From Opitutia bacterium (GTDB taxonomy: Bacteria; Verrucomicrobiota; Verrucomicrobiia; Opitutales; Coraliomargaritaceae), in the NCBI GenBank assembly GCA_029248665.1, contig JAQWIW010000023.1, forward strand, positions 1-34,747: DNA of 34,747 nt, given 5' to 3'. The notes under the pieces are model-generated. The model saw nothing but the letters and a program-made list of their open reading frames with translations. It searched no databases and was not told the DNA's origin. The position numbers were made by a program, and so were the translations under genes. Shown here in pieces: positions 9,714 through 26,672 of the stretch; the stretch's first letter is position 1, and the number at the start of each line of letters is the position of its first letter.

Positions 9714-10697
9714 ATGACAGCATCTATAATTCTAGGAACAGGTTCCTACACTCCTGATAAAATTATTACTAACGATGACATGTCGAAAATCGTCGATACT
9801 TCAGACGAATGGATTAAAACTAGAACTGGAATTCGTCAAAGGCGGTTTGCTGCAGATAATGAAACTACGAGTGATATGGCTCTTCAAGCAGCCAGCAAAG
9901 CAATTCTCAATGCAGGCATAGAAAAAAATTCCATTGATTGTATTATTTTTGCAACAATGACGCCGGATATGCCTTTCCCATCTTCAGCCTGCATATTACA
10001 ACATAAAATGGGCCTTCCTAATGTCACAGCATTTGATATTCAGGCCGCTTGCTCAGGCTTCATCTATGCCTTGAATCTTGCCAATACTATGATCTTATCC
10101 AAACAATATAAGACCATTTTAATCATTGGAGCAGAAAAATTGAGCAGCATCTTAGATTTTGAAGACCGCACTACTTGTGTTCTATTTGGAGACGGTGCCA
10201 GTGCCGCGATCCTCACAGAAAGTAATGATTCGAATATCGGCATATTGCATACTGATACTGGTGCAGATGGAGAGACTCCTGAATTACTTCACCAACCCGC
10301 TGGTGGCTCGGCCATACCTCCTTCCATAGATTCTCTTAACAATCGCTTACACTTCCTGAAAATGAACGGCAAAGAAATTTTCAAAAAAGCCGTTCGTGTC
10401 ATGGGTCAATCATGCGTTAAATCACTTGAAGCCTGCAATTTAACATCTGAAGACATTGACTTAGTCATTCCCCACCAAGCTAACATGCGTATCATCGAAA
10501 GCTTAGCAAAACGTTTAGAAATTCCTTTAGATAAATTTCACAATAACCTCGACCTTTACGGAAATACTTCTGCTGCCTCTATAGGTATTGCACTAGATGA
10601 AGCAATTCAAGCGAACCGCATCAAAAAAGGTGATCGTATTCTGTTGGTTGCATTTGGTGCAGGCTTAACTTGGGGTTCTCAGATAATTCAATGGTAA
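9714..10697 (+). CDS. fabH: 3-oxoacyl-ACP synthase III
   Basis: FabH condenses acetyl-CoA with malonyl-ACP to begin fatty-acid synthesis. The Cys-His-Asn triad is complete: Cys113 in AACSGF, His254 in PHQAN, and Asn284 in GNTSAAS. The N-terminal [15 protein letters not shown] and the [14 protein letters not shown] stretch are typical. The 327 residues are normal. The stop codon overlaps the next start as TAATG, so translation of the BamD-like gene is probably coupled to fabH. The gene uses an ATG at 9714, without a strong Shine-Dalgarno. Confidence 0.97.
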
Positions 10698-11731
10698 TGA
10701 AAAACACATATTTAAGATTGAATCCATTATTACTCATTCTATTAAGCCTTACATGCTTACAAAGCAACGTGAATGCCAGCTTAAATCCGCTTAAATGGCT
10801 ATCGACTAAAAATTCTACTTCAGAAGTAATAGCAGTAGAAGATAGTTTTGAAAAAGATACCGAGCGATTAGTCAAAAAATTAGCAAAATTTAAGGCAATA
10901 GATAATAAAAAAGCTGAACAAAAGATTTATAAAAAAATCATTCTTAAACATCCAAGAGCCAGCATTGCCAAAGAAGCTGCTTACAATCGTGGGATTTATC
11001 TTTTAAATAAAGAAAAATGGAGTGATGCTTTCAATGCCTTCAGCATCATTAAACGCTATCATCCTGACTTTTCTAAACTTGATTCAGTTATAGAGTTACA
11101 ATTTCAATGCGCTGAAAACTTAATGCATCAGGTGAAGAAAAAAACTTTAGGTTTCAAGAATCACTCAACATATAACACTGAATCGATCGCTTTGTTTATT
11201 AGCTACGCTAGCCTCTATCCCTATAATGAAAAGGCCCCATTAGCCTTACTTAATTCAGCAAAAGTTTCTGAAAGTGATAAAGAATACGATGTTGCCGTTG
11301 TTTCTTTAAAAAATCTTATCAACAATTATCCAGATAGTGAATATACTGCCGAAGCTTATTTCATGATCGCCCATATTTATTCAAAATTTATTAAAGGGCC
11401 TGAGTATGATCTGGAATCCACTCGTGAAGCCATACGCTATTGCGAAGATTTTCTGGCCCTATACCCAAAACATGAAGAAATCGCTACGATTGAAATATTA
11501 TACGAACGATTGCTCAATTCATTAGCGACTAATCGGGTACTCTTAGCAGATTACTACTATTTTAATAAGCGAGATAATATCGCCGCCATTATATTTTATA
11601 ATGAAGCTATCACCATTGCACCAAATTCACAAGCTGCTATAGAAGCTCGAGAACGATTAGAAGCAATTGAAACTGGTATACGCCCTACTACTGGACGAAA
11701 CCTAATTAAGAAACTCTTTTTTATTAAATAA
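10697..11731 (+). CDS. Exported TPR protein, BamD-like
   Basis: A 344-residue exported protein. The ATG at 10697 was chosen because it overlaps the fabH stop (TAATG) and opens directly with a signal peptide, [20 protein letters not shown], with a likely cut after NVNA. Longer in-frame starts inside fabH only add a polar tail. The mature part has TPR-like helical repeats, including AAYNRGIYLLNKEKWSDAFN, SEYTAEAYFMIAHIYSKFIK and NIAAIIFYNEAITIAPNSQA. This fits the BamD/YfiO-type outer-membrane assembly family. The cysteine at the end of the hydrophobic core lacks a good lipobox, so lipidation is doubtful. It is longer than BamD of Proteobacteria. The adjacent LptE-like gene supports an outer-membrane role. 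The BamD assignment is tentative. Confidence 0.7.
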   Translation: MKNTYLRLNPLLLILLSLTCLQSNVNASLNPLKWLSTKNSTSEVIAVEDSFEKDTERLVKKLAKFKAIDNKKAEQKIYKKIILKHPRASIAKEAAYNRGIYLLNKEKWSDAFNAFSIIKRYHPDFSKLDSVIELQFQCAENLMHQVKKKTLGFKNHSTYNTESIALFISYASLYPYNEKAPLALLNSAKVSESDKEYDVAVVSLKNLINNYPDSEYTAEAYFMIAHIYSKFIKGPEYDLESTREAIRYCEDFLALYPKHEEIATIEILYERLLNSLATNRVLLADYYYFNKRDNIAAIIFYNEAITIAPNSQAAIEARERLEAIETGIRPTTGRNLIKKLFFIK

Positions 11732-11739
11732 ATCCCAGT

Positions 11740-12288
11740 ATGTACAATCCCACCGTATTTACAGTAATCTTAACACTATTCTGGACATTCGTTTCAAGTA
11801 GTTGCTCACATTATTCTGTAATTCCTACCAATACTGCACCCTTCAAAACAATTTATGTGCACACCATTTCGAATCAAGATTTTGCCCCAAATATTCACAC
11901 CCTCTTTCAAAATCAAATTAGACAAAGCATCCTAAGAGATAATCGCCTAACCATTGCAAAAAATCCTTTAGAGGCCGATACACAGCTTTATTTAACGATT
12001 GAAGATTACAGTAGAAAAGTAAGTACTCGCTCTAGCGTAGATGCCGGTCGCTTTAACTCACTCAGTCTTCAATTAACCGTATCCGTATCTTTATATGATA
12101 ATCAGACTGATTCTTATTTGCTCAACAATGTATCACTAAATAGTAGTATACCCGTATTTTTTGATGCCTTAAAAAATACGATAAACCATCGAGAAATAGA
12201 ATATTATACACTTCCTACAATTACCAAAGATTTATCCCAAGATATACTAGAGTTAATCTTAAGCGATTGGTCGATATCAGTTGATTGA
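11740..12288 (+). CDS. LptE-like outer-membrane lipoprotein
   Basis: A 182-residue small lipoprotein. The N-terminus FTVILTLFWTFVSSSC has a hydrophobic core and a candidate lipidated Cys22, although the lipobox (SSS before Cys) is imperfect. After it comes the LptE-type pattern: FKTIYVHTISNQDFAP, then NQIRQSILRDNRLTIAKNP, then EADTQLYLTIEDY and LQLTVSVSLYD. In the family this protein plugs the LptD channel that delivers lipopolysaccharide to the outer membrane. It begins eight bases after the BamD-like gene. Its end overlaps the end of the convergent hisI by 12 bases. The family assignment comes from overall pattern and context, not from an invariant motif. Confidence 0.68.
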   Translation: MYNPTVFTVILTLFWTFVSSSCSHYSVIPTNTAPFKTIYVHTISNQDFAPNIHTLFQNQIRQSILRDNRLTIAKNPLEADTQLYLTIEDYSRKVSTRSSVDAGRFNSLSLQLTVSVSLYDNQTDSYLLNNVSLNSSIPVFFDALKNTINHREIEYYTLPTITKDLSQDILELILSDWSISVD

Positions 12289-12699
12289 TTCAACAAATTT
12301 TAAAGAATCTGTCCCAGAGATTTTTCGATAATAACACCCTTCTCTAGACACTCCCTTTTCGTTCTTAGTGTGACAAGCACCTTTACCTTGAGGAATCACT
12401 CGATACAAAAGTGAATTCTGCTCACAATTCACACGAATCTCCTCCAACTTCAAAAAATCACCACTCGTTTTACCTTTGATCCACAACTCATTTCGACTCG
12501 TGCTCCAAAAAGTTGCCATGCCGGTTTCTTGGGCTGTCTTTAATGCAAGTTCATTAACATAACCAAGAATCAAAACTTCCCCAGTCTCTGCATTTTGTGC
12601 CACGGCAGGAAGCACATCTGATCCGCATTCTGCAATTTTTTGCAACTTTTTAAAATCAAGATTTAACACACCGCCTTCTTCCAATTCATAATTACTCAT
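12277..12699 (-). CDS. hisI: Phosphoribosyl-AMP cyclohydrolase with an altered metal motif
   Basis: HisI opens the purine ring of phosphoribosyl-AMP in step three of histidine synthesis. Family segments are clear: VLILGYVNELAL, FWSTSRNELWIKGKTSGDFL, and GKGACHTKNEKGVSREGCYYR. The three zinc-ligand cysteines are kept (Cys92, Cys109, Cys122). The aspartates of the usual DCDxD magnesium motif are replaced: here the residues are Asn91-Cys92-Glu93-Gln94-Asn95. The 140 residues are normal for the single-domain form, with no HisE fusion. No other his gene is near. It is convergent with the LptE-like gene. Confidence 0.92.
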   Translation of the reverse strand: MSNYELEEGGVLNLDFKKLQKIAECGSDVLPAVAQNAETGEVLILGYVNELALKTAQETGMATFWSTSRNELWIKGKTSGDFLKLEEIRVNCEQNSLLYRVIPQGKGACHTKNEKGVSREGCYYRKISGTDSLKFVESIN

Positions 12700-12792
12700 T
12701 ATTTCGGTATAGGATATTTAAAGGTTGAGTCGAGTTAAGATTTAAGCATTAAAATTAAATAGAAAATTAAAACCCTTAAAAAAAATATTTTT

Positions 12793-14778
12793 ATGAGTGA
12801 TACATTAAGAAACGATGCAGCTAACCAAGCAAGAGGATTAGCGATTGACGCAGTCCATTCATGCAGTTCAGGACACTTAGGATTACCTTTAGGAGCTGCC
12901 GAAATTGGTGCTTCTTTATTTTCAACTGGTCTCAACTTTGATCCTCAACAACCTACTTGGCCAAATCGTGATCGCTTTATTTTATCCGCCGGTCACGGAT
13001 CTATGTTCCTTTATTCTTGGTTACACCTATCAGGTTATGACCTGCCCCTTGGAGAATTAAAACAATTTCGTGTCCTACATTCTAAAACTCCAGGCCATCC
13101 TGAGTACAAAGAAACACCAGGCGTAGAGGCAACAACCGGGCCACTTGGTCAAGGTGTTGGTAATGCTGTTGGCTACGCTCTATCTGGGAAAAAATTAGCC
13201 AGTCGTTATAATACAGCAGAACATGCCTTATTTGATTTTCATGTATTTGCATTAATGGGTGATGGCTGTTTCCAAGAAGGTGTTGCCCGTGAGTCTATTT
13301 CTTTTGCAGGTCACCAAAAGCTAGATAACCTTATTTTAATCTACGATTATAATAAAGTCACACTAGATGCTATGGCAGATAAAACACAAAGTGAAGACAC
13401 ACCCGCTTTCTTCGCTGCCCAAGGATGGGAAGTTTTTGAAATAGACGGACATTCGATTGATGCAATCGACCAAGCCATTGCGCAGGCGAAAGAAAACAAT
13501 AACGGAAAGCCAAAAATTATTTTAGCAAAAACCATCATCGCAAAAGGTATCTCTGAAGTTGAAGGCACCGCAGGAGGTCATGGAGAAAGTGGAGCTAACT
13601 TTGCCGAAACCGCACGTGCTAAGCTCGGCTTACCCAAAAGCACTTTTTATGTTTCAGAAGATGTTCGAAATTACTTCAACGATAAGGCAAAAGCTCGTTC
13701 CGAAACACGCACCTCATGGGAACAAACCTATGCATCTTGGAAACTAGCTAATCCATCACTCGCTCAAGAATTTGAAGCGAGTAATACCTCACTTGATTTT
13801 GAATCACTCTCCGCAATGATTCCTGAATTTACTCCAGAAAATGCCAATGGTGCATCACGAGCTTCAGGAGGAATTATCTTTAACGCAATCGCTAGCAAAG
13901 TACCAAATTGCATAACAGGTTCTGCTGACCTTTTTGGCTCAACCAAAAACTACATTAAAGAAGGAGGTAATTTTGCCCCCGAAAACTTAGATGGACGTAA
14001 TATTTGGTTTGGCATTCGTGAACATGGTATGGGTGCAATTTGCAACGGTATTGCCTATGATGGATATTTCAAAATCAGCGGAGCTACCTTTGCTGTATTT
14101 GCAGATTATCTTAGACCTTCCATTCGTCTTGCAGCACTCTCCGGTCTGCCCGTGAGCTATATTCTCACCCACGATTCTGTAGGGGTTGGCGAAGACGGCC
14201 CGACTCATCAACCTGTGGAAACCGTCAGTGGATTGAGAGTCATTCCAAATTTAGATGTCATTCGTCCAGGAGATGCCGAAGAAACCGCTGGTGCATTTAT
14301 TGCCGCACTTTCTCGCACAGACGGACCCACCGCATTAATCCTTTCTAGACAGAACATCAGCACTAAATCCATGCTTTCTGCCCAAGAACGCAGAAGCGGT
14401 GTCCAACTCGGTGGTTATATTGTCCATAAAGAAACCGCGGAGCTCAAACTCATTATATTAGCCACAGGCTCTGAACTGCCAATCGCTATAGAAGCAGCCC
14501 AAGATATCGGACCAAATGTTCGCGTCGTTTCTATGCCAAGCTTTGAGCGCTTCGAAAGGCAATCAGCTGATTACAAAGAAAGCATCCTGCCGAATGCTTG
14601 CCGTAGCCGAGTTGCTATTGAAGCAGGTGTTTCCAGTACCTGGGGGACATACCTAGGATTAGATGGTAAGAGTGTTTGTATTGATCGCTTTGGACTTTCA
14701 GCTCCAGGAAATATCGTAATGAATGAATTAGGTATTTCTTTAGAAAATTTAAAATCAGTTGCTTCTGATTTGGTTTAA
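12793..14778 (+). CDS. tkt: Transketolase
   Basis: Transketolase moves two-carbon units between sugar phosphates in the pentose phosphate pathway, using thiamine diphosphate. The full 661 residues are present. The N-terminal substrate segment is SGHLGLPLG, slightly varied from the common SGHPGAPMG. The ThDP motif runs from GDG (156-158) to Asn187. The pyrimidine domain has [14 protein letters not shown], and the substrate loop is [17 protein letters not shown]. The C-terminal domain is complete. It starts at an ATG with a T/A-rich leader and no Shine-Dalgarno. It is divergent from hisI with a 93-base gap, AT-rich, that must hold both promoters. nadA follows after 33 bases. Confidence 0.97.
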
Positions 14779-14811
14779 GTCATCTTATAAAGCTTAACAC
14801 TTATTATTTAT

Positions 14812-15801
14812 ATGAGTAAAACTGTACTCAATTATGAGCCGTTGATTTTCCCTCCAAAAAAAACCAACGAAAAAATAGTCCTTTCTGATATTCAACAAGA
14901 GATTCTTTCTTTAAAAAAAGAAAGAAATGCAATCATCCTTGCTCACAACTATCAAATAGAGGCGATTCAAGAAGTGGCCGATTTTGTCGGAGACTCCCTT
15001 GGACTTTCTTATAAAGCAGAAGAAGCGGATGCGGATGTTATCGTTTTCTGTGGCGTTCATTTCATGGCCGAAACCGCAAAAATTGTGAACCCTCAAAAAA
15101 CAGTTTTACTGCCTGATTTAGATGCCGGTTGTTCTCTCTCTGATGCCTGTCCAGCCGAGCAACTTAAAGCCTATAAAGAAAAACACCCAAATATTTATGT
15201 AGTCGCCTACATTAATTGTTCCGCTGGTGTTAAGGCACTATCTGATGTTATTTGTACAAGTGGTAACGCCCAAAAAATTGTAGATCAAGTGCCTGCAGAT
15301 AAAGAAATACTTTTTGTCCCTGATCAGAATTTAGGACAATGGGTCTCACAACAGACCCATCGTAAAATGGAACTCTGGCCCGGCTCATGTTATGCACATG
15401 TCTTATTTACTTTTAACGCTCTCAAAAAAATCAAAGATCAATTTCCCAAAGCACTCATTGTTGCCCACCCAGAATGTGTCCAAACTGTTCGAGAATTTGC
15501 CAACGAGGTCTGCTCCACAGAAAAAATGGTACACTTCTGCAAAGAAAGCCCAGCCGACACTTTCATAATCGTCACCGAAACGGCAATGATCCACAGATTA
15601 CAAAGGGAAATCCCTAATAAAACTTTTATTGCTGGCCCCACAAATACCTGTGCCTGCAACGAATGTCGCTTCATGAAAATGAATACGATAGAGAAATTAC
15701 GAGACTGCTTAAAAAACTTAAGCCCCCAGATTGAGATCCCTGAGACCACTCGTAAGCAAGCCTATGTACCGTTAAAACGCATGCTTGAATGGAGCCAATA
15801 A
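14812..15801 (+). CDS. nadA: Quinolinate synthase
   Basis: NadA condenses iminoaspartate with dihydroxyacetone phosphate to make quinolinate for NAD synthesis, using a [4Fe-4S] cluster. The expected cluster cysteines are Cys107 in DAGCSLSDACP, Cys222 in AHPECVQTV, and Cys285 in the NTCACNECRFMKMN segment. The substrate-binding LAHNYQ is at residues 43-48. The 329 residues are normal. NadB and NadC genes are not in the window. The MFS gene starts three bases after the stop codon, suggesting one transcript. Oxygen sensitivity is expected from the family. Confidence 0.96.
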   Translation: MSKTVLNYEPLIFPPKKTNEKIVLSDIQQEILSLKKERNAIILAHNYQIEAIQEVADFVGDSLGLSYKAEEADADVIVFCGVHFMAETAKIVNPQKTVLLPDLDAGCSLSDACPAEQLKAYKEKHPNIYVVAYINCSAGVKALSDVICTSGNAQKIVDQVPADKEILFVPDQNLGQWVSQQTHRKMELWPGSCYAHVLFTFNALKKIKDQFPKALIVAHPECVQTVREFANEVCSTEKMVHFCKESPADTFIIVTETAMIHRLQREIPNKTFIAGPTNTCACNECRFMKMNTIEKLRDCLKNLSPQIEIPETTRKQAYVPLKRMLEWSQ

Positions 15802-15804
15802 ATA

Positions 15805-17022
15805 GTGCCTGAACTGATCCAGAACACACACTCCAGAGACAGTCTTCGTTCTTTTCTTTACGGCATCCTAGAAGCTGGGTGGCAAACTTTTGCATTCATT
15901 GTTGCTATTCGATATTTTAATTCCGATATCAACTTCAAAGCCTTTATTGCCGCCTCCGGTCCTATCGGATTTTTACTCACACCTCTTTCCTTATATTTTT
16001 TCGCAAATAAGAAATTCACCGCATCATTTGCTTGTGCCTTGGTCTATTTTTTGACCGCACTATTTTTATTTGGTTCAATCACCGTAAATAGTCTAGCTGT
16101 ATTTGGAGCCTGCATCATTATCAGTCAAATAATCAATGTGCAAAAAGGCCCTGTCTTGTTGCAAATTTACACGACAAACTATCCGCCAGAAAATCGAGGA
16201 CATTACATGAAAATGCCTCATATTCTTTCCGCAGTAAGTGCTGTTGCTTTTGGCTTCATTGGAGGAAAAATTTTAGACATTAACATAGAAAACTACACTC
16301 TACTGTTTTTGTTAATGGCCATAATCTCTCTTATAGCCAGTGCAGTCGTCTACAAGATGCCTAGCCAAAAACTCACCCGAGAACATATAGGAAACCCTTG
16401 GCAAAGCATATCATTGATTTGGAAAGATAAGCTCTTTGGATCTATGCTCGGTGCTTGGATGCTACTAGGTATTGGCAACCTCATCTGCCTGCCCATTCGC
16501 TATGAATACCTAGCCAATCCCAAATTTGGAATCGATGCAAATAATACACAAATTGCCCTCCTCATGATTGCCGTACCCGCAGTAGCCAAAATTTTAAGCA
16601 CCACTATTTGGGCTAACCTATTTGATCAATTAAAACTCATCACCACTCGCAACATCAATAATGCCTTCTTTATTCTCAGCATTATACTCTTTTTTATTTC
16701 CGATAACATTATTTTAATCACCATAGCCTCAGCATGCTATGGGACTGCCTTAGGTGGTGGTAAAATATTTTGGAACCTTTGGGTGACGAAAATCACTAGC
16801 CAAGAAAAAGTGTCTTCATACATGAGTGTGCACATGGCTTTAACTGGATTAAGAGGTACGATTGCCCCCTTCATCGGTTACTGGATTCTCATTAAGACAA
16901 GCCCACAAATCGTTGCCTATCTTGGCGCTTTTTTAGTTGCGCTTTCCATCGTCTTATTTGAATTAATGAAAAATAACCCACGCTTACTAGACGCTCATAA
17001 TAACAAAGAAAATGCACATTGA
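15805..17022 (+). CDS. MFS-type permease, substrate unknown
   Basis: A 405-residue polytopic membrane protein with about 12 hydrophobic segments, the pattern of the major facilitator superfamily. The loop after the fourth or fifth segment carries NYPPENRGHYMKMPH, similar to charged MFS cytoplasmic loops. The start is GTG at 15805, three bases after the nadA stop, and no ATG lies close by. The last 11 bases overlap the start of the helicase gene, so the two are probably translated together. Nothing in the sequence names a substrate. Being placed after nadA makes a nicotinate or pyridine-related role conceivable, but there is no direct support. Confidence 0.8.
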   Translation: MPELIQNTHSRDSLRSFLYGILEAGWQTFAFIVAIRYFNSDINFKAFIAASGPIGFLLTPLSLYFFANKKFTASFACALVYFLTALFLFGSITVNSLAVFGACIIISQIINVQKGPVLLQIYTTNYPPENRGHYMKMPHILSAVSAVAFGFIGGKILDINIENYTLLFLLMAIISLIASAVVYKMPSQKLTREHIGNPWQSISLIWKDKLFGSMLGAWMLLGIGNLICLPIRYEYLANPKFGIDANNTQIALLMIAVPAVAKILSTTIWANLFDQLKLITTRNINNAFFILSIILFFISDNIILITIASACYGTALGGGKIFWNLWVTKITSQEKVSSYMSVHMALTGLRGTIAPFIGYWILIKTSPQIVAYLGAFLVALSIVLFELMKNNPRLLDAHNNKENAH

Positions 17023-19339
17023 TCCGGTAAATCGCATCTTACAAATCAGCGTTGGCGAACTTTCTCGATTTCATAATACTAGCCAAAAATCCTTTGATGG
17101 CTTACAGCCATGGCGAGCAGAACTCGGTCGAAAATGGCACGAAAAAATTCAACAAGATACCGCTGAAGTATTTCCAAATTCAAAATTTGAAGTCAGCGTC
17201 AAAAAAACGCTCCATTATAAAAATTGGGCCTTTGAGATACAAGGGCGTATCGACCAGATCATCGATAACGAAAAAGGGACTTTAGAAATTAATGAAATTA
17301 AAACGGTTCGCTATCCCATCCCTGAAGCATCCAATATCCTCAAAGAAAAATACACGCACTACTTCACGCAATGTGCAATTTACTTTCACCTCTTACAACA
17401 ACAATGCGATTACGCAGATACTCAATTAAGTGCAAGCTTGACCCTCATTGATATTGAAACAGGACTCTCCCAAACAATTGAACTTGATGACCAAGATAAA
17501 GCCACCGTTCATGAACAACTAGACGCACTCCTTCCTTTTCTCAATGACCGAAGTAATGCCCATACACGACTTCAATCCATTGAAACCAAAGCACCTTTTT
17601 CTAAACTCCGTGAAGGACAATCTGAACTCATTAACGCACTAGAAAAAGCCACCCTCCAAAGTCCTCATATTCTAGTACAAGCACCCACTGGATTCGGCAA
17701 AACTGGGATTGTTCTCCATCACGCCGTAAATCATATGAAAAGTGGTTTTTTCGAGCGACTCATTTACCTTACCTCTAAATCGACGGGACAACTCCAAACA
17801 CTTAAACAACTCAATACCCTCGGCTCTTTACGACATGTACAAATGCGTAATCGGCAAGAACTCCGTATTGATTCATCCAATCATCGTTGCACCGCAGACA
17901 CACAGTGCGATGTCCATTTCAACCTTAGGCTCAGGCAGATTGGACTCGGCCCCGAAAATCTTTTCAAAGGCAATAGTTTCACCATCGAAGAAATTAAATC
18001 CACTGGATCGGAACTCGGGCTCTGCCCTTATGCCTTAACCAAATGGGCCCTCCCTTATGCTGAAATTTGGGTCGGTGATTCCAACTACATATTCAATCCA
18101 AGTAGTCGAAATGTTTTCTTTGAGACACATGGATTCAATCCCAAGAAAACTCTATTGATTATCGATGAAGCTCATAATCTACCAAGCCGTACCGCTGACG
18201 CACTCTCCATTGAACTCTCCGCCTATGCTTGGGAATCTTTACAAGAAAGCATTTTCGAAAACTATGCTTCAAACTGCTTAAAAGCAATCGGCAGAGATAT
18301 CCTAAAGTTTCTTAAAACCCTAAAAAGCAAAACCATCCTCAACACCACCCAGACCTACATCCTTCAAGACCTCTTCGATGATTTCAGCCAAGAACTCAAC
18401 GAAACACCAATCTATAATCATGATATCCCTCAAAAAGATCTCTCTTTAATTTACTCCATACCCAAAGCAAAAGACATCCTCTCAAACCAAGCAGAAAATT
18501 TTATAATTTGGAGCCCCAAAGAACAAACACTCAAACTCAATTGCTTAGACCCATCAGAATGGATTTCAGAGTGCCTCAAACCCTTCGCCTCCACCATTCA
18601 AATGTCTGCTACCCTCGACCCCATTGATAACCATTTGAAATTGATTGGACTTTCAAACCTCGAAAGTACAATTGCTATAGGACATGCTCCTTGGCGATCC
18701 AATGCCTATTCCATAGCCATAGATACCCGAGTCGACACCCGATATAAAAACCGCAGCCAATATTATGAAACGACCGCACACACCATCACTACTCTATATC
18801 AAGAGTCAAACGGTCAACCCATTGCCATATTTTTTCCAAGCTACCATTATGCTAATACGATTAAAACATACATTGAAACGATCGACTCTAGCCTACCCAT
18901 TTACATTCAAGAAAAAAACCTCAGTCTCAAAGAGCAAAAAGATTTCATTGAAAACAGTATCGATCATCAAGCTATTCTCTTTCTTGTTCTCGGCTCAGCA
19001 TTCACCGAAGGTATTGACACCTTAGGAGGGCAGATTCAAACCGCCATGGTTGTTAGCCCAGCACTCCCTGAAGTCAATCCACTCAATGAAATGAAACTTC
19101 AACACGAAAAGCTGAATGATTCCTCTAAAGCATTTCAAAAAACCTACATCATCCCCGCCTTTCAAAAAATTCATCAAGCACTCGGACGACTGGTTCGTGC
19201 TCCCGAGCATTCCGCAAAAATTCTCCTACACGGAAAACGCTTTCTCCAACCCGAATACCGTGAAATTCTTGCTGATGAATATCAAACTGAAACCGTCATT
19301 CGGAAATCATCTGAATTAATCGATTGGTTGCACAATTAA
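17012..19339 (+). CDS. Cas4/RecB-type nuclease fused to an XPD/DinG-type helicase
   Basis: A 775-residue two-domain protein. Residues about 1-190 form a PD-(D/E)xK nuclease of the Cas4/RecB kind: His43, Asp81 in GRID, Glu95-x-Lys97 in INEIKT, and the QxxxY motif at Gln120-Tyr124. Residues about 195-775 form a superfamily 2 helicase. Its Walker A is APTGFGKT (224-231), its DEAH box is 385-388 in IIDEAHN, and motif VI is QALGRLVR (722-729). Cys293, Cys299 and Cys338 sit where XPD-like enzymes hold a [4Fe-4S] cluster, but the first of the usual four cysteines is not visible. DNA repair or recombination processing is likely. The ATG overlaps the MFS gene by 11 bases. Similar nuclease-helicase fusions are known in other bacteria but remain little studied. 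Confidence 0.9.
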   Translation: MHIDPVNRILQISVGELSRFHNTSQKSFDGLQPWRAELGRKWHEKIQQDTAEVFPNSKFEVSVKKTLHYKNWAFEIQGRIDQIIDNEKGTLEINEIKTVRYPIPEASNILKEKYTHYFTQCAIYFHLLQQQCDYADTQLSASLTLIDIETGLSQTIELDDQDKATVHEQLDALLPFLNDRSNAHTRLQSIETKAPFSKLREGQSELINALEKATLQSPHILVQAPTGFGKTGIVLHHAVNHMKSGFFERLIYLTSKSTGQLQTLKQLNTLGSLRHVQMRNRQELRIDSSNHRCTADTQCDVHFNLRLRQIGLGPENLFKGNSFTIEEIKSTGSELGLCPYALTKWALPYAEIWVGDSNYIFNPSSRNVFFETHGFNPKKTLLIIDEAHNLPSRTADALSIELSAYAWESLQESIFENYASNCLKAIGRDILKFLKTLKSKTILNTTQTYILQDLFDDFSQELNETPIYNHDIPQKDLSLIYSIPKAKDILSNQAENFIIWSPKEQTLKLNCLDPSEWISECLKPFASTIQMSATLDPIDNHLKLIGLSNLESTIAIGHAPWRSNAYSIAIDTRVDTRYKNRSQYYETTAHTITTLYQESNGQPIAIFFPSYHYANTIKTYIETIDSSLPIYIQEKNLSLKEQKDFIENSIDHQAILFLVLGSAFTEGIDTLGGQIQTAMVVSPALPEVNPLNEMKLQHEKLNDSSKAFQKTYIIPAFQKIHQALGRLVRAPEHSAKILLHGKRFLQPEYREILADEYQTETVIRKSSELIDWLHN

Positions 19340-19369
19340 TTCAGAAAGCCTGCAATCCCTTAGGAATTA

Positions 19370-19846
19370 CTAATAGCGAGAACGCATTGCACGTTCTGCT
19401 TCACGCATCTCCACCTTACGCTTCATCGTCTCACGCTTGTCGAAGACCTTTTTACCTACACACAAGGCGATCTCCACTTTAATCAAAGCTTCTTTAAAAT
19501 AAACACGCAAAGGCACTAAAGTTTTACCACCAGCGTCAACCGCGCCAATCAAACGGCTAATTTCCTTAACATGTAAAAGCAACTTACGCTTCCGACGCTC
19601 CGAATGATTTAATTCATTCCCATGTGAATAGGGAGCGATATAGCTATTCAGCAGCCACACTTCCCCTTTTTCTACACGGCAATACGATTCATTAATCTGC
19701 ATATTGCCCTCACGAATGCTTTTCACTTCCGTGCCCAGCAATTGAATACCCGCCTCAAAACGGTCCCCAATTGTATAATTGAAACTCGCCTTACTATTAC
19801 GAATTTGTCTCTGTTCTGGTCCTTTCTTCTGTTTTTTCGCACTCAT
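19370..19846 (-). CDS. smpB: SsrA-binding protein SmpB
   Basis: SmpB binds tmRNA and delivers it to stalled ribosomes for trans-translation. The 158 residues include the family's start NSKASFNYTIGDRFEAGIQL, the GTEVKSIREGN signature, INESYCRVEKGEVWLLNSYI, and the basic C-terminal tail with DKRETMKRK. It is convergent with the helicase gene (30-base gap, no clear terminator seen) and lies 88 bases downstream of rpoZ on the same strand. The tmRNA gene itself was not found in the window. Confidence 0.96.
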   Translation of the reverse strand: MSAKKQKKGPEQRQIRNSKASFNYTIGDRFEAGIQLLGTEVKSIREGNMQINESYCRVEKGEVWLLNSYIAPYSHGNELNHSERRKRKLLLHVKEISRLIGAVDAGGKTLVPLRVYFKEALIKVEIALCVGKKVFDKRETMKRKVEMREAERAMRSRY

Positions 19847-19934
19847 ACTGCTAAATGTACACCACGCTCAAAAAAATGGTGATACAAATCAAACTGAAAG
19901 AACCTTCTTCTTAACGCTATACGTAAAAACTAAA

Positions 19935-20144
19935 CTAGTAACTATCGTTCTCGTCTAGCTGGTAATTAATCTTACCTTCCATGATTTCACGTAAAGCCAT
20001 ATCCTCAGCGGATAAACGCTCAAGAGATTCAACCAACGGTTTGTATCCATTCTTTAATTGTTTAGCACGACGAGACACCACGTTCACTAAAATCATAGGA
20101 TCCGTGATAATCTTTTGTGCTTCTGCTAAATAATCGTCTCTCAA
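19935..20144 (-). CDS. rpoZ: RNA polymerase omega subunit, TTG start
   Basis: The omega subunit helps assemble RNA polymerase by holding the beta-prime subunit. The coding part, read from the TTG at 20142-20144, is 69 residues: (M)RDDYLAEAQKIITDP, then ILVNVVSRRAKQLKNG (the conserved core), then ALREIMEGKINYQ. A longer frame starting at an ATG at 20184-20186 adds 14 residues that do not look like omega. The TTG is preceded by GGAG (20153-20156) at an eight-base spacing, one of the few good Shine-Dalgarno motifs in the window. It lies upstream of smpB on the minus strand. Confidence 0.88.
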   Translation of the reverse strand: MRDDYLAEAQKIITDPMILVNVVSRRAKQLKNGYKPLVESLERLSAEDMALREIMEGKINYQLDENDSY

Positions 20145-20152
20145 TGTAATAT

Positions 20153-20156
20153 CTCC
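20153..20156 (-). promoter_or_regulatory. rpoZ: Shine-Dalgarno GGAG that fixes the rpoZ TTG start
   Basis: On the minus strand GGAG lies eight bases before the TTG. It decides the start against the upstream ATG at 20186. Most other starts here lack such a motif. Confidence 0.65.
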
Positions 20157-20257
20157 TTTAAGTATTAAATGTGTATGTGAAATCACTACAGGAACCGATT
20201 TCTAACAACAAAAGCAAACAAAAAAACAAATTTAATTAAATACTGTTAAAATTCCCA

Positions 20258-20263
20258 TTGACA
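20258..20263 (+). promoter_or_regulatory. Candidate -35 element (TTGACA) upstream of rplM
   Basis: A perfect TTGACA lies 40 bases before the rplM ATG. No strong TATAAT follows at 16-19 bases; TAGCTT (20280-20285) and CTTTAT (20283-20288) are weak candidates. The location before a ribosomal protein operon fits a promoter. The rest of the 20145-20303 divergent spacer is AT-rich without other visible signals. Confidence 0.4.
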
Positions 20264-20303
20264 ATGAGTATCTTAAATCTAGCTTTATCCGCTTTTCTTC
20301 ATC

Positions 20304-20735
20304 ATGAAAACAACTTTAGCAACATCTACCAATCATAAAAAGGAATGGCACATTATTGACGCCAAAGGCCAAGTGCTCGGACGCATGGCTGTGCAAATTG
20401 CCAATCTATTAAGAGGACGCCACAAAGCAGTCTACACTCCGCATGTTGATGCAGGTGACTATGTCGTTATCATTAATGCTGATAAAGTAGCACTCACCGG
20501 ACGCAAAGAAGAGAACAAACGTTATATGTTCTATTCAGGCTGGATGGGCGGCGAGTCCTACAAATCTGTCGCACAAATGCGCCAAAACAAACCTGAATTT
20601 ATCATTGAGCATGCAGTTAAAGGAATGCTTCCTAAAAACCGCCTCGGTCGCCAAATGATCAAGAAGCTTAAAATTCACGCAGGTTCCGAGCACCCTTACC
20701 AAGCTCAAAAACCTCAACCTTACTCTGTAAGTTAA
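20304..20735 (+). CDS. rplM: 50S ribosomal protein L13
   Basis: L13 is an early-assembling protein of the large subunit. The 143 residues match the family. Key segments are KKEWHIIDAKGQVLGRMA near the N-terminus, LLRGRHKAVYTPHVDAGD, and AVKGMLPKNRLGRQM. It starts at an ATG with a C/T-rich leader and no Shine-Dalgarno. rpsI follows after 40 bases, the universal L13-S9 pairing. A TTGACA lies upstream as a possible -35 element. Confidence 0.98.
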   Translation: MKTTLATSTNHKKEWHIIDAKGQVLGRMAVQIANLLRGRHKAVYTPHVDAGDYVVIINADKVALTGRKEENKRYMFYSGWMGGESYKSVAQMRQNKPEFIIEHAVKGMLPKNRLGRQMIKKLKIHAGSEHPYQAQKPQPYSVS

Positions 20736-20775
20736 TTAACTTATTAATAATTTTTATATTTTCCTTATTTAACAT

Positions 20776-21177
20776 ATGGCAACGAAAACAGAAAAAGATA
20801 TCACTACAGTCGGTCGTAGAAAAACTGCTTCCGCTCGTATCCGCCTAAGAGCTGGCTCCGGAAAAATTGAAGTGAATGGAAAAAATCCTAGTGATTATTT
20901 CAAAGCTGAAGACTTTACCCGCAACGCACTATCGCCTCTTGAAACACTTGATGCAAAAGATCAATTTGATATTACCATCAATGCAGCAGGCGGAGGATTA
21001 AACGGACAAGCCGGTGCAGTAAGACTCGGAATCGCTAGAGCTTTAGAAAAAGTTGATTCTGAAAATCGCGTCACTTTGAAAAAAGAAGGACACTTAAGTA
21101 GAGACCCTCGCAGTAGAGAACGTAAGAAATCAGGCCAGCCAGGGGCAAGAAAACGCTTCCAATTCTCGAAACGTTAA
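20776..21177 (+). CDS. rpsI: 30S ribosomal protein S9
   Basis: S9 is a small-subunit protein whose C-terminal tail reaches the P-site tRNA. The 133 residues include VGRRKTASARIRLRAGSG, INAAGGGLNGQAGAVRLGIA, and the ending RKRFQFSKR with the conserved terminal SKR. It forms a two-gene unit with rplM. An intrinsic terminator begins 31 bases after the stop codon. Confidence 0.98.
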   Translation: MATKTEKDITTVGRRKTASARIRLRAGSGKIEVNGKNPSDYFKAEDFTRNALSPLETLDAKDQFDITINAAGGGLNGQAGAVRLGIARALEKVDSENRVTLKKEGHLSRDPRSRERKKSGQPGARKRFQFSKR

Positions 21178-21207
21178 TTTTATTACTCTTACATAAGTAA
21201 AAATTTC

Positions 21208-21249
21208 AAAAACCCTCTACGGCAAAACTTTAAGCCAAAGAGGGTTTTT
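21208..21249 (+). terminator. Rho-independent terminator after rplM-rpsI
   Basis: The arm AAAAACCCTCT (21208-21218) pairs perfectly over 11 bp with AGAGGGTTTTT (21239-21249). The loop is 20 bases, and the right arm provides the T-run. The poly-A on the left arm also allows weak function on the other strand. It separates the ribosomal genes from the arginine cluster and is the clearest terminator in the window. Confidence 0.88.
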
Positions 21250-21286
21250 CTTTTCAAAAGCCATCAATCCCTTATAACAATTAAAT

Positions 21287-22309
21287 ATGAAAACAGCTAT
21301 TGTCGGTGCTTCAGGTTATTCTGGAGAAGAATTGGTACGGTTGCTCTCTCAGCATCCCGAGGTGGAGCTTTGTGCCGTCACCTCACGGTCGCTCGCTGGG
21401 CAAAAGGTCGCAGATCACTTGCCTAAGCTCAGCCACATTCTCAAAGACCTCACCTTCACTGAATCCAGCCCACAAGCCTTAGCTGAAAATAAGGAAATCG
21501 AAACCGTCTTTTTAGCCCTCCCTCATGGCGTTTCTTTTGAATATGCTGAGCCCCTCTTCGAAGCAGGTAAAACCATCATAGATTTAAGTGCCGATTTTCG
21601 GTTAAACTCTCCCAGTAATTACGAGAAATACTACGGAAAAAAACACCCTGCACCTCAATTGCTTGATGTATCTCCCTACGTACTCCCTGAAATCAGCCAC
21701 CCAAAATGGATGGACGCACAACTGATTGCCTGCCCAGGATGCTACCCAACCAGTGTTCTCATACCACTCATACCACTCTTTAAAGCAGGGCAAATCAGCC
21801 ATAAAAATGTTGTCATCAACAGTTACAGCGGGGTCAGCGGAGCCGGAAAAACGCTCAATGAAGGCTTATTATACACCAATGTAAACGAAAACCTTAAAGC
21901 GTACGGCTTACCCACACACCGGCACCTATCTGAAATTTCCGAACAACTCGATACTGCCGCTTTTGAAGATGTCTCTGTTCAATTTTGCCCTCATTTAGCC
22001 CCTATCAACAGAGGCATTCATACCACCATAGTCGTTCCAGCTAAAGTATCCATTGAAACAATTTACGCTCAATGGGAAAAAGCCTACGGCGATGCACCCT
22101 TCGTGAAAATCTTACCCAGTGGTACTTTCCCAGAAATCAAGAATGTCGTCGGATCCAACAGAATCGATTTCTCCGCCGTTTATGATAAGCAAACCGAAAA
22201 CTTAATCATCACCTCTGTTATCGACAACTTAATCAAAGGGGCCAGCGGACAAGCTGTTCAAATATTCAACAAAAAATTTGCTTTCCCAGAAACCATGGGG
22301 CTTCTCTAA
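21287..22309 (+). CDS. argC: N-acetyl-gamma-glutamyl-phosphate reductase
   Basis: ArgC reduces N-acetylglutamyl phosphate to the semialdehyde with NADPH, step three of arginine synthesis. The NADP-binding motif is GASGYSG (7-13). The catalytic cysteine is Cys152 in ACPGCYPTS. The catalytic histidine lies in INRGIHTTI. The 340 residues match the long form. It opens the arg cluster 37 bases after the rpsI terminator, starting at an ATG with an AT-rich leader. No ArgR box could be identified with confidence by eye. Confidence 0.97.
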   Translation: MKTAIVGASGYSGEELVRLLSQHPEVELCAVTSRSLAGQKVADHLPKLSHILKDLTFTESSPQALAENKEIETVFLALPHGVSFEYAEPLFEAGKTIIDLSADFRLNSPSNYEKYYGKKHPAPQLLDVSPYVLPEISHPKWMDAQLIACPGCYPTSVLIPLIPLFKAGQISHKNVVINSYSGVSGAGKTLNEGLLYTNVNENLKAYGLPTHRHLSEISEQLDTAAFEDVSVQFCPHLAPINRGIHTTIVVPAKVSIETIYAQWEKAYGDAPFVKILPSGTFPEIKNVVGSNRIDFSAVYDKQTENLIITSVIDNLIKGASGQAVQIFNKKFAFPETMGLL

Positions 22310-22364
22310 GATTGTAAAGACGCCTCTACGAATATTTTTCTGAACTACTCGACTCGCATTGATT

Positions 22365-23597
22365 ATGGATTCCCAATTTACAATACAAGCTCAAGCCAAT
22401 TCCAAAGGACTCTTTGATTGCCCAGGCTATAAATATTCGGCAACTGCTGTCGACATCCGGGACAACCAATCAGGCCAACTTGATATTGCTTTAATTATTG
22501 GTAATTCACCTTTAAAATCAGCCGCCGTCTTCACCCAAAATGACGTGACTGCTGCGCCTGTTGATTTATGTAAAGCCATCCTTAAAGCCAATCCTGAAAA
22601 AATCGGCGGCATTGTCATCAACAGCGGAAACGCCAACGCATGTACAGGAAAACAAGGCATTGCTGATGCACAGGAAATGTCTGCCAGTGCACAAGTCACA
22701 ACAAACATAGGGCTTCCATTTTATGTATGCTCAACTGGAAGAATCGGGAGAAAACTCCCCATCGATAAAATTTCCGCAGGAATCGACACCTGTGCTAAAG
22801 CTCTCCAGCATTGCCCCGAACAAGCTCTATATGCCTCACAAGCTATCTTAACTTCCGACACTTGTGAGAAAAATGCTACCGTCACCATTCAATACCAAGG
22901 CAAGACATTCACCCTAGCTGGAATGGCCAAAGGTGCAGGGATGATCGAACCCAACATGGCCACCATGCTCGCATTCATAGTCACCGACATAGAAGCCAGC
23001 CACGTATCTCTACAGAAAGCTCTTTCCAAAGCCAATGCACAAACCTTCAACTGTATCTCAATTGATGGCGACATGAGCACAAACGATACAGTTATTCTTC
23101 TCGCCAATGGAGAATCCGGCCAATCCATTGATGACGACCCTATTTTAGCTCAAGCCTTCCAAGAAGCCCTCACTTTAATTTCTGAAATCCTCGCCAAAAA
23201 AATCGTCAGTGACGGAGAAAAAATCACTAAAATCGTGACTCTAGAAATCAAAGGATGTCGCACATTTGAAAATGCAGAAAAAATAGCTCGGGCAGTCGGC
23301 AATTCATTACTCGTAAAAACCTCTTTTTATGGCTCCGATCCAAATTGGGGACGTATCGTTGATGCCGCAGGCTATGCAAGAGTTGGACTCAAATTAGATC
23401 AACTTAATCTCCATTACGATGACATTCCTGCACTCCTTTCAGGTATTCCACAAGAACAACATACAGACGACTGGAAGACAATTGTTCAAAAAAAATCCTT
23501 TGCCATTAGATTAGACCTAAATCAAGGAGACCAATCATTTAAATTAATTACCACAGATTTAAGCGAAGCCTACGTTGATTTTAATAAAAGCGAATAG
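22365..23597 (+). CDS. argJ: Bifunctional ornithine acetyltransferase / N-acetylglutamate synthase
   Basis: ArgJ moves the acetyl group from acetylornithine to glutamate, closing the cyclic arginine pathway. The autocleavage site is in KGAGMIEPNMATML: the nucleophile is Thr200, counted from the ATG at 22365, and cleavage after Ala199 yields the alpha and beta chains. The NSGNANACTG segment (about 87-95) and the C-terminal YGSDPNWGRI are family hallmarks. A TTG two codons upstream is in frame, but the ATG is preferred. Because argJ is present, the acetyl group need not be removed by ArgE. Whether it is truly bifunctional (able to use acetyl-CoA) cannot be judged from sequence. Confidence 0.96.
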   Translation: MDSQFTIQAQANSKGLFDCPGYKYSATAVDIRDNQSGQLDIALIIGNSPLKSAAVFTQNDVTAAPVDLCKAILKANPEKIGGIVINSGNANACTGKQGIADAQEMSASAQVTTNIGLPFYVCSTGRIGRKLPIDKISAGIDTCAKALQHCPEQALYASQAILTSDTCEKNATVTIQYQGKTFTLAGMAKGAGMIEPNMATMLAFIVTDIEASHVSLQKALSKANAQTFNCISIDGDMSTNDTVILLANGESGQSIDDDPILAQAFQEALTLISEILAKKIVSDGEKITKIVTLEIKGCRTFENAEKIARAVGNSLLVKTSFYGSDPNWGRIVDAAGYARVGLKLDQLNLHYDDIPALLSGIPQEQHTDDWKTIVQKKSFAIRLDLNQGDQSFKLITTDLSEAYVDFNKSE

Positions 23598-23610
23598 CAA
23601 ATCACTGATT

Positions 23611-24513
23611 ATGGAACACAATTTATTAGATTTAGACGCCACCACCAAAGCCTCCGTATTACTGGAAGCACTTCCTTATATTCAAAGATTTAAGGACTCT
23701 ATATTTGTTATTAAATACGGCGGAGCTTTCATGGATTCAAGTGATCCAAGTAAACGCAAAAAAATAGCTTCTGACATCGCCTTCCTTCATGCCGTCGGCA
23801 TCAAAGTCGTCATTGTACACGGAGGTGGCAAAGCTATCACAAATGCACTCAAAGAAAAATCTATCAAAAGCGAATTCAAAAACGGCTTAAGGATTTCCAC
23901 TAGACCCGTCATCAAAGTAGTTGACCAAACCTTAAACGAAAAAATCAATCCAGATATTTGCCAAGACATCATTGAACAAGGAGCGCACGCCATCCAAATC
24001 GACGGCAAAGACATTTTACTCTGCAAACAAAAAACATTCTCAGACGAAAACGACCTATCTCAATCCTATGACCTCGGCTTCGTCGGAGAAACCTACAGCG
24101 TAAAAACAAAAATTATCAAAAAAGCCCTGTCTAATGGAAGTATCCCAGTGATCTCTCCATTAGCAAAGGATGATGAAGGAGCCATCTATAACACCAATGC
24201 TGACTCAGCTGCCTGCAAAGTTGCCAGTGCACTCAAAGCTAGACGCCTCGTTTATTTATGCGATGTACCCGGCCTAATGCGTGATGTAGAAAACCCAGAT
24301 AGCTTAATCTCTTCATTGAAAGTTCATCAAATCAACGAACTCATCGATAACAAAATTATATCTAGTGGAATGATTCCTAAAGTCGAAAGTGCCCAAAGTG
24401 CCCTCCTCGAAGGCGTCAAACGTGTTCACTTTATTCACGCCGAACAGGCTCACACTCTTTTATTAGAAATCTTTACTCATCAAGGTATCGGAACCGAAAT
24501 CCTTAATCACTAG
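23611..24513 (+). CDS. argB: Acetylglutamate kinase
   Basis: ArgB phosphorylates N-acetylglutamate, the second step and often the arginine-controlled one. Visible motifs are VIKYGGAFMDSSDP (lysine and glycine-rich nucleotide site), VVIVHGGGKAI, NTNADSAACKVA, and the Lys in SSGMIPKVESA. The ATG at 23611 is preferred. A longer frame starting inside argJ only adds a tail of 12 residues. The 300-residue length is typical. The N-terminal helix LLDLDATTKASVLLEALPYI resembles the extension found in arginine-sensitive ArgB enzymes, so feedback inhibition is possible, but this is an inference. Confidence 0.95.
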   Translation: MEHNLLDLDATTKASVLLEALPYIQRFKDSIFVIKYGGAFMDSSDPSKRKKIASDIAFLHAVGIKVVIVHGGGKAITNALKEKSIKSEFKNGLRISTRPVIKVVDQTLNEKINPDICQDIIEQGAHAIQIDGKDILLCKQKTFSDENDLSQSYDLGFVGETYSVKTKIIKKALSNGSIPVISPLAKDDEGAIYNTNADSAACKVASALKARRLVYLCDVPGLMRDVENPDSLISSLKVHQINELIDNKIISSGMIPKVESAQSALLEGVKRVHFIHAEQAHTLLLEIFTHQGIGTEILNH

Positions 24514-24531
24514 CTAACTAACATTTTTCTT

Positions 24532-25710
24532 ATGGAACACCATCCATCACTCGCAAAAAATTACGCACCGCCACCCTTTAATGCAGTCAAAGGCCAAGGC
24601 GTCTTTTTGTACGATGATCAAGACAAGCAATACTTAGATTTCACTTCAGGCATTGCAGTAACCGCCCTAGGACACTCCCACCCTAAATGGACATCCGCAG
24701 TTCAAAAACAACTCCATAAACTAGTCCATTGCAGTAACCTTTTTGGGATACCCAGTCAGCAACAACTTGCCGATAAGCTTGTACAGATCGCAGGCCCCGG
24801 TCGTCTATTATTTTGCAACAGCGGTGCAGAAGCCAACGAAGCACTGATTAAACTAGCAAGACTCCATGGACTCAAAAAAAGCAAAACAACAGGGCATGCC
24901 TGTCACCAAGTAATCACTGCAACCAATGCTTTTCACGGACGCACCTTCGGCTGTATGGCTGCTACACCACAAGACAAAATCCAAAAAGGATTTCACCCAA
25001 TGCTCGAAGGTTTCCGTTATGCTGAATTTAATAACATTGAAAGCTTCAAAGAGCAAATAGACCCCTCAGTCGCCGCCATCATGATTGAAACGATCCAAGG
25101 TGAAGGCGGTATCTTCCCGGCTAAAAAAGAATTCCTTCAAGCACTTCAACAACTTTGCCAAGATAATGACCTTCTCTTAATAATTGATGAAGTCCAATGC
25201 GGTATCGGTAGAACCGGCGACTTTTTTGCCTATCAAGAAAGCGGCATCATCCCAGATGCCATCGGTATGGCTAAAGGACTCGGTGGAGGATTCCCCATCG
25301 GAGCTATATGGATCAAGCAAGCAAATGAAGAACTCTTTCAACCAGGATCACACGGCACCACATTTGGTGGAAATCCACTTGCATCCGTTTCAGGTAACGC
25401 CGTTATTGATACCATTCTAGAAGATAAACTGCTCGATAAAGTTAAAAAACAATCCAAAAAATGGCATCAGCAAATTCATGACTTAAAAGATAAATACCCA
25501 AATAAAATTCATGCCATAAGAGGCAAAGGATATATGGTTGGTATTTCAGTCGATGACGCATTAGCCCTCACTCATAGTGCTAGAGAAAAAGGACTACTAA
25601 TTGTACCCGCAGGTCACAATACCATCCGCCTCTTACCACCACTAATCGCAGAAGAAACTCACTTAAACCAAAGTATCCAAGTTTTAGACTCTGTCTTTAA
25701 AGACGCATAA
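24532..25710 (+). CDS. argD: Acetylornithine aminotransferase
   Basis: ArgD uses PLP to convert N-acetylglutamate semialdehyde to N-acetylornithine, with glutamate as amino donor. The PLP lysine is Lys248 in IGMAKGLGGG. The PLP-ring aspartate lies in IIDEVQCGIGRTG (about 217-229). The N-terminal GQGVFLYDDQDKQYLDFTSG and the CNSGAEANEAL loop are standard. The 392 residues match the family. It may also serve the lysine pathway, as some ArgD enzymes do. It sits 18 bases after argB with an ATG and no Shine-Dalgarno. Confidence 0.96.
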   Translation: MEHHPSLAKNYAPPPFNAVKGQGVFLYDDQDKQYLDFTSGIAVTALGHSHPKWTSAVQKQLHKLVHCSNLFGIPSQQQLADKLVQIAGPGRLLFCNSGAEANEALIKLARLHGLKKSKTTGHACHQVITATNAFHGRTFGCMAATPQDKIQKGFHPMLEGFRYAEFNNIESFKEQIDPSVAAIMIETIQGEGGIFPAKKEFLQALQQLCQDNDLLLIIDEVQCGIGRTGDFFAYQESGIIPDAIGMAKGLGGGFPIGAIWIKQANEELFQPGSHGTTFGGNPLASVSGNAVIDTILEDKLLDKVKKQSKKWHQQIHDLKDKYPNKIHAIRGKGYMVGISVDDALALTHSAREKGLLIVPAGHNTIRLLPPLIAEETHLNQSIQVLDSVFKDA

Positions 25711-25739
25711 TTATTTTATAACCGCCCAAATGTATTACA

Positions 25740-26672
25740 ATGAAACATTTCAATCATATAACTGATTTCTCTTTAGAAGAAATCCAAGCTACGTTACAGC
25801 GAACAAGAGACTTTAAACTCAACCGTACGAACACACCCAAAACCCTAGAGCAGCAATCTTGGGGCTTACTTTTTTATAAGAGCAGCACCCGCACCAGAGT
25901 ATCTTTTGAAGTAGGCATACAAGAACTCGGTGCTAATGCCATTGTACTCAATTCTCAAAACACACAAATCGGCCGAGGTGAAAGCATCAAAGACACAGCC
26001 ATTGTACTCTCAAGATATCTACATGGATTAGTCATAAGAGCTTATGACCATTCCGTAATCACTGAATTTGCCAAACACGCAAGCATGCCTATCGTCAACG
26101 GCTTAACTGACTTCAATCACCCATGCCAAGTTCTCACTGATATTTATTCCATATTGGAACGCATCGACCCAGAAAACGTTCAACTATCTACCATCCAAAA
26201 TAAAAAAATTACTTTCTTTGGAGATACCGCTTCAAATATGGCCAACTCATGGATCATTGCAGCCGCTCATATAGGCTTTGACCTAGTCCTCGCCGGCCCC
26301 AAAGGTTATGAACCCACCACACAAGTTTTAGAAAAGCTCAAAGCGGAAAACCTCACTCCACGACATACATTCACAAATGACCCAAACGAAGCAGCCAGCC
26401 AAGCAGATGTCATAAATACCGATGTTTGGGTATCCATGGGTGATGAAGCCCAAAGCAAAGAGCGAAAAGAAGCCCTCGCTGATTTTCAAGTTAATGAAGC
26501 ACTCGTCACCCAAGCCAATAAAGATTTCCTTTTTCTTCATTGCCTACCTGCACACATCGGGGAAGAAGTGACAGAAGCAGTTATTGAAGGGACAAATTCC
26601 ATCGTTTACGACCAAGCCGAAAACAGACTTCACACGCAAAAAGCCATTTTAGCACAACTACAATTAAGCTGA
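25740..26672 (+). CDS. argF: Ornithine carbamoyltransferase
   Basis: ArgF makes citrulline from ornithine and carbamoyl phosphate. The carbamoyl-phosphate loop is SSTRTR (48-53), followed by HPCQ (127-130). The ornithine-side motif is FLHCLPAH (His267, Cys268). The 310 residues match the family; the SMG loop appears as DVWVSMGDEAQ. HCLPA identifies ornithine rather than aspartate or acetylornithine as substrate. It ends the arginine cluster; argG and argH are not in the window. uppS follows only 14 bases later. Confidence 0.96.
   Translation: MKHFNHITDFSLEEIQATLQRTRDFKLNRTNTPKTLEQQSWGLLFYKSSTRTRVSFEVGIQELGANAIVLNSQNTQIGRGESIKDTAIVLSRYLHGLVIRAYDHSVITEFAKHASMPIVNGLTDFNHPCQVLTDIYSILERIDPENVQLSTIQNKKITFFGDTASNMANSWIIAAAHIGFDLVLAGPKGYEPTTQVLEKLKAENLTPRHTFTNDPNEAASQADVINTDVWVSMGDEAQSKERKEALADFQVNEALVTQANKDFLFLHCLPAHIGEEVTEAVIEGTNSIVYDQAENRLHTQKAILAQLQLS

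Follow-up and report, generated by a model that had tools for sequence, protein, structure and literature searches.

The 34,747-nucleotide stretch of an Opitutia bacterium contig analyzed here (the window) encodes a 775-residue protein in which a Cas4/RecB-type nuclease domain precedes an XPD/DinG-type helicase. With a probability of roughly 60%, we read this protein as an EndoDinG-type, vertically inherited chromosomal repair factor of the Opitutales that most likely works alongside RecO where replication has left gaps, where forks have stalled or at crosslinks. This reading draws on properties computed here, namely the domain composition and fold of the protein, the invariance of its catalytic residues, its presence throughout the order and the recO-like operon of its relatives. 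The architecture itself is already known; new are an altered FeS motif in the clade of the window protein and a recurring link to a recO-like gene in its relatives.

Domain structure and relation to known nuclease-helicases

The gene (17012–19339, + strand) is one open reading frame with an ATG start. The reverse strand is rich in stop codons throughout this interval, and the start codons of homologues line up at residue 1 of the 775-residue protein. A promoter and terminator scan returned no more sites than did shuffled sequences.

AlphaFold2, given 42 aligned homologues, predicted the full chain with a pLDDT of 88.3 and a pTM of 0.85, and residues 1–190 alone (17012–17581) with values of 94.8 and 0.89, respectively. 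Compared with solved folds using Foldseek and VIA-align, this N-terminal part resembles PDB entry 9kqh (Z 16.3), Cas4 SSO0001 (4ic1, Z 13.5) and MGME1 (8xa9, Z 12.9), and further RecE (3h4r, Z 11.3), AddA (Z 10.4), EXO5 (Z 10.2) and Dna2 (Z 8.1–8.2). The model, the fold matches and the invariant residues described below identify it as a PD-(D/E)XK domain of the Cas4/RecB type. No Pfam family matches it above cut-off. The Cas4 profile TIGR00372 finds the protein weakly (E = 9.6e-4, 19 bits against a cut-off of 65), and PHROG 1706, labeled 'CRISPR/Cas system associated', matches residues 26–136 at 4.9e-11. Seventeen open reading frames of at least 100 amino acids overlap 10000–26000; four were scanned with Pfam and the others named by reading, and none of them resembled cas1 or cas2.

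The remainder of the chain contains DEAD_2 (residues 291–403) and Helicase_C_2 (PF13307, 1e-22; residues 601–757, 18812–19282), both above the Pfam cut-offs. Conservation in the alignment marks the Walker A motif APTGFGKT at residues 224–231 (17681–17704) and the Walker B DEAH box at residues 385–388 (18164–18175). Three NCBIfam models scored below their cut-offs (rad3, 139 of 247 bits; dinG_rel, 68 of 548; YoaA, 62 of 680). The full model aligns with 9kqh across both domains (Z 30.1, rmsd 6.1, 708 residues, 23% identity), and the next best matches are XPD and TFIIH chains, which cover about residues 190–775. The domains and the XPD fold agree with the fusion to an XPD/DinG helicase that a sequence-only reading of this DNA had proposed.

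Entry 9kqh, 'Finegoldia magna DinG in complex with ssDNA and ADPNP', was released on 2025-12-03; a publication on it was not found in the literature searched, which covers few subscription journals. The two proteins share the two-domain architecture, but the solved chain has four cysteines in its FeS region and an alanine at the position of D81 of the window protein. Judged from sequence, this alanine probably represents an engineered, nuclease-dead mutant.

The class closest in description is EndoDinG, a subgroup named in a 2025 review (Cheng 2025, PMC11981726) with Bdellovibrio bacteriovorus HD100 as its type. The review cites the endonuclease activity of the Bdellovibrio protein as unpublished data and states that a structure was then still to be reported. 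The window protein has the N-terminal PD-(D/E)XK domain with the H/E/D/E/K residue set (H43, E60, D81, E95, K97), the XPD/DinG motor domains MD1 and MD2 and an FeS domain at the expected position, where C293, C299 and C338 fall within the three or four cysteines by which the review defines this domain (PMC11981726). The subgroup is, however, described with a CCCC FeS motif, whereas the window protein displays R285-H-C-C-C, and because R285 replaces the first cysteine (Cys1) we class the protein as an EndoDinG variant and not as a standard member. The sequence-only reading was right that the architecture exists elsewhere; that its role is largely uncharacterized was an overstatement, as the subgroup has been named (PMC11981726) and 9kqh has been solved.

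A functional echo of Dna2 with a different class of helicase had also been suggested, and the comparison upholds it. In Dna2, too, a RecB-type nuclease and a helicase, there of superfamily 1, share a single chain, and the nuclease domains are structurally similar (see the Z scores above), whereas the DEAD_2 and Helicase_C_2 domains and the XPD fold place the window helicase in superfamily 2. UvrD-Cas4 fusions likewise join a Cas4-like nuclease to a helicase, but their helicase is the 3′-5′ superfamily 1 enzyme UvrD, and they are found mostly in defense contexts (PMC5704561). ExoDinG proteins (S. aureus and B. subtilis DinG) carry a nuclease on the N-terminus of a DinG helicase as well, but this nuclease is a DEDDh 3′-5′ exonuclease of an unrelated fold; crosslink resistance by S. 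aureus ExoDinG is reported to require both activities (PMC12345164).

Some DinG proteins are reported to act on RNA, and the enzyme could likewise serve mainly to resolve RNA-DNA hybrids or to degrade RNA. A 2026 paper describes Listeria DinG as an exonuclease acting on unprocessed rRNA (PMC12774634), and CasDinG is described as unwinding RNA/DNA hybrids (PMC10450177). In the DinG of S. aureus and B. subtilis, however, the fused exonuclease is reported to be of the DEDD type (PMC12345164), whereas the window protein has a PD-(D/E)XK domain, and this domain groups structurally with DNA nucleases, which makes such a main role improbable.

Conservation of the nuclease site and the motor

Conservation was examined in two homologue sets that share genomes: 54 sequences from relatives, including the window copy, and 84 sequences comprising the window protein, 78 loci of the genome_contigs collection and one protein each from Listeria, Legionella, Acetoanaerobium, Burkholderia and Paenibacillus, with L081 and L109 excluded as too short. 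In the smaller set, position 43 is histidine in 53 of 54 sequences (the other has a gap), and D81, E95, K97, Q120 and Y124 are unchanged in all 54. In the larger set, the residues are invariant wherever they are present: H43 (nucleotide position 17138, + strand) in 79/79, D81 (17252) in 80/80, E95 (17294) in 82/82, and K97 (17300), Q120 (17369) and Y124 (17381) in 83/83 each, the absent residues being gaps, mostly in rows truncated by contig ends. E60 (17189), which was missing from the earlier residue list and is the fifth metal-site residue according to the description of EndoDinG, is also invariant (80/80 with the residue present).

The sequence-only reading had named the N-terminal residues H43, D81, E95-x-K97 and QxxxY (120–124) and had offered two ways to refute it, a predicted fold of residues 1–190 other than PD-(D/E)XK or a lack of conservation in homologues. 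Both checks were carried out and the reading withstood them: the residues are present (with isoleucine between E95 and K97), they are invariant in both sets and they belong to a predicted PD-(D/E)XK fold, all of which supports the claim of a probably active Cas4/RecB-type nuclease.

The motor residues are conserved as well in the 84-sequence set. Walker A residues G227 and K230 are found in 84/84, T231 is threonine in 82 and serine in two; Walker B residues D385, E386 and H388 are found in 84/84, A387 is alanine in 82 and valine in two; and R726 and R729 are unchanged in 81/81.

Variation of the FeS motif

The FeS region of the window protein (17864–18025, + strand; delineated by the alignment of this region) carries a degenerate motif that the sequence-only reading had missed. 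R285 stands where Cys1 would be expected, followed by H291-x-C293, C299 and C338-P, such that Cys1 is lost and the pattern HxC...C...CP is kept. Forty-two of the 84 proteins lack Cys1 but have HxC-x(4-6)-C and a C-terminal CP[YF] (HCCC; 40 by the strict pattern and, added by hand, L080 and L115 with an additional cysteine in the region), 29 are CCCC, ten have lost the motif and three are odd. CCCC occurs in 24 proteins of the order and in every one of the five that come from other phyla. One protein, L079, combines CCCC with HxC and is placed inside the HCCC clade on a tree that was built without the FeS columns, by a quick method that gave long-branch warnings. On this tree, the four states need at least ten changes; the lost state needs three (about three lineages), and starred branches require only one of these.

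All ten proteins that have lost the motif keep every checked nuclease and motor residue (10/10 each), and the nuclease site is thus under a tighter constraint than the FeS site. In one member of the window's family, L087, Cys1 and Cys2 are gone and the histidine is kept; this protein resembles an intermediate in the decay of the motif.

The counts are consistent with the histidine taking over from Cys1 as a ligand. We offer this as no more than a suggestion, because the in-order CCCC proteins often carry a histidine just before Cys2 too (19 of the 24). An independent-pairs test of HxC gain against Cys1 loss had no power, with two pairs on starred branches, in one of which the changes have the same direction. 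A description of the altered FeS motif of the window clade was not found in the literature searched, in which few subscription journals are represented.

Taken jointly, the observations can be read, tentatively and with considerable doubt, as those of a marine Opitutales enzyme that is leaving its dependence on FeS: a nearby histidine would functionally replace Cys1, other lineages would have dropped the site, the nuclease and the motor stay invariant, and the RecO pathway would gain a nuclease-helicase through an ancestral operon of a recO-like gene and EndoDinG. In this departure from FeS, the H-C-C-C site might hold another type of cluster or zinc.

Distribution

A search of relatives found matches at E ≤ 0.001 in 72 of 91 genomes. 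In four of these (G043, G057, G068 and G085), the match is confined to the helicase part, does not go beyond E values of 1e-5 to 1e-7 and resembles an ordinary DinG; strong matches thus remain in 68 of 91. In the family of the window, the gene is present in 40 of 43 genomes. A phylum-wide sample gave 83 of 240, many of them merely weak helicase matches. Records of Listeria, Legionella, Burkholderia, Paenibacillus, Enterococcus and Acetoanaerobium, among others, match over 80% or more of the query length, with 22–28% identity. On a conjugative plasmid of Legionella sainthelensi (L140, 3911–10208), genes for a GIY-YIG nuclease and for UmuC/UmuD-type (Pol V) proteins come after the homologue. A profile search of the window genome revealed no other Helicase_C_2 protein and no second DinG, and a VRR_NUC partner is absent from this genome.

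The Cas4-like nuclease, the adjoining GIY-YIG and Pol V genes on the Legionella plasmid and a match of the helicase part alone to the PADLOC typeIV_DinG model (5e-69) would fit a nuclease that defends against phages or mobile elements. Such a role is nevertheless quite unlikely for a gene that is found in 40 of 43 family genomes and in housekeeping contexts. Viral contigs gave no match in what was a weak test with a single-sequence query, whose peptides were not conserved and which missed the relatives in genome_contigs as well, and the 20 matching records among the 50,697 of a phage collection are below 60% identity; 16 of the 20 are unannotated, and some may be host DNA.

Gene neighborhood and the recO-like link

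In the window, the gene is preceded on the same strand by nadA (14812–15801, PF02445, 1.6e-117) and by an MFS transporter gene (15805–17022, PF07690) that overlaps its start by 11 bases. We compared this arrangement with 80 loci, kept from 471 relatives that alignment A1 had found in genome_contigs. An MFS gene lies nearby in nine of the 80 (L057–L060, L068, L069, L072, L075 and L086) and nadA in five (L058–L060, L072 and L075); in L072 and L075 other genes intervene between the MFS gene and the helicase. In four loci (L057, L058, L060 and L081), smpB, rplM and rpsI are near the gene. The coupling to an MFS gene and nadA, which the sequence-only reading had singled out as unexplained, is therefore local to the genus of the window and a few other family members. 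Although overlapping genes on one strand in the window and its genus would suit a functional coupling, the small counts, the intervening genes and the retention of the enzyme across the order without these neighbors render it highly improbable, and we treat both genes as lineage-specific neighbors outside the system.

Elsewhere in the order, the gene is often found downstream of genes for a 7TM-HD protein, YbeY, a DUF502 protein and a RecO-like protein. An HMM of the recO-like family, run over the 80 loci, detected a same-strand recO-like gene upstream in 25 of them, directly adjacent in 18 (gap of −1 to 153 bases) and further off in seven. The gap of −1, by position a 4-base stop/start overlap, occurs in three of the 18 (L100, L102 and L134). 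Once the 37 family loci and five others with less than 1 kb of upstream sequence are set aside, 38 loci remain, of which 18 have the recO-like gene adjacent and 25 have it in all; clade membership was taken from the tree, except for L081 and L109, which were placed by identity. In the window's family, none of the 37 genome_contigs loci has recO beside the gene by this HMM, and the link is hence not obligatory. The identity of the recO-like family is itself weak: RecO_N is found in 13 of 18 members (best 3.7e-5), TIGR00613 reaches 8.4e-6 at best, under its cut-off, and RecO structures are matched at E values of 0.44 and 1.3 only. A paper on a recO-DinG operon link was not found in the literature searched, with its small share of subscription journals.

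Another contig of the window genome (G000:C34, L138:6293–7690) carries a DUF502 gene followed by a highly divergent recO-like gene (no Pfam match; TIGR00613 at E = 3.5e-3), and no helicase gene follows them. As this pair has stayed together without the helicase, the helicase gene most likely moved, and the MFS gene and nadA probably came to lie next to it by rearrangement.

In some relatives, a small gene, F7, lies between recO and the helicase; it has no Pfam match (one member scanned) or NCBIfam match (four scanned). A protein of about 280 amino acids with a signal-peptide-like start is encoded just upstream of the helicase in L066 (5093–5923, +) and nine relatives (alignment A2); in L090, L091 and L103 it lies between the recO-like gene and the helicase, and the members scanned have no Pfam or NCBIfam match.

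Proposed function

The motors of the XPD/DinG family move in the 5′ to 3′ direction. From family membership, domain composition and gene context, we infer both enzyme activities, the helicase polarity and the pathway as follows. The motor would travel 5′ to 3′ on single-stranded DNA and open forks or flaps, and the N-terminal Cas4/RecB-like, metal-dependent nuclease (H43, E60, D81, E95, K97) would cut the single strand that the motor exposes. Its sites of action, next to RecO, would be post-replicative gaps, stalled forks or crosslinks, and neither the MFS gene nor nadA would be linked to it in function. The RecO pathway is to be taken with caution, as an operon can join unrelated housekeeping genes, and ybeY, the DUF502 gene and the 7TM-HD gene are part of the same one.

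The logic of a nuclease-helicase and a nuclease fold common to AddA, RecE and Dna2 would also suit a bacterial counterpart of Dna2 that resects double-strand breaks and makes tails for RecA. The window genome, however, already has an AddAB-like pair (G000:C32, L144:4056–10030), a 942-residue AddB-like protein and a 1049-residue AddA/RecB-like protein with UvrD and PD-(D/E)XK domains, both scoring well under the cut-offs of the curated equivalog models. This pair probably takes care of break resection, so we consider a resection machine unlikely and the processing of gaps, forks or crosslinks beside RecO more likely.

If the recO-like link is functional, EndoDinG gains a pathway that can be tested. 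What the FeS cluster contributes to XPD/DinG helicases is a matter of debate, and the review counts this question among those that call for more work (PMC11981726). Within one order, the enzyme is otherwise conserved but occurs with CCCC, with HCCC and with no motif, which makes this question testable on natural proteins; were the departure from FeS dependence real, these proteins would form a natural series for probing what the cluster does in an XPD-type helicase.
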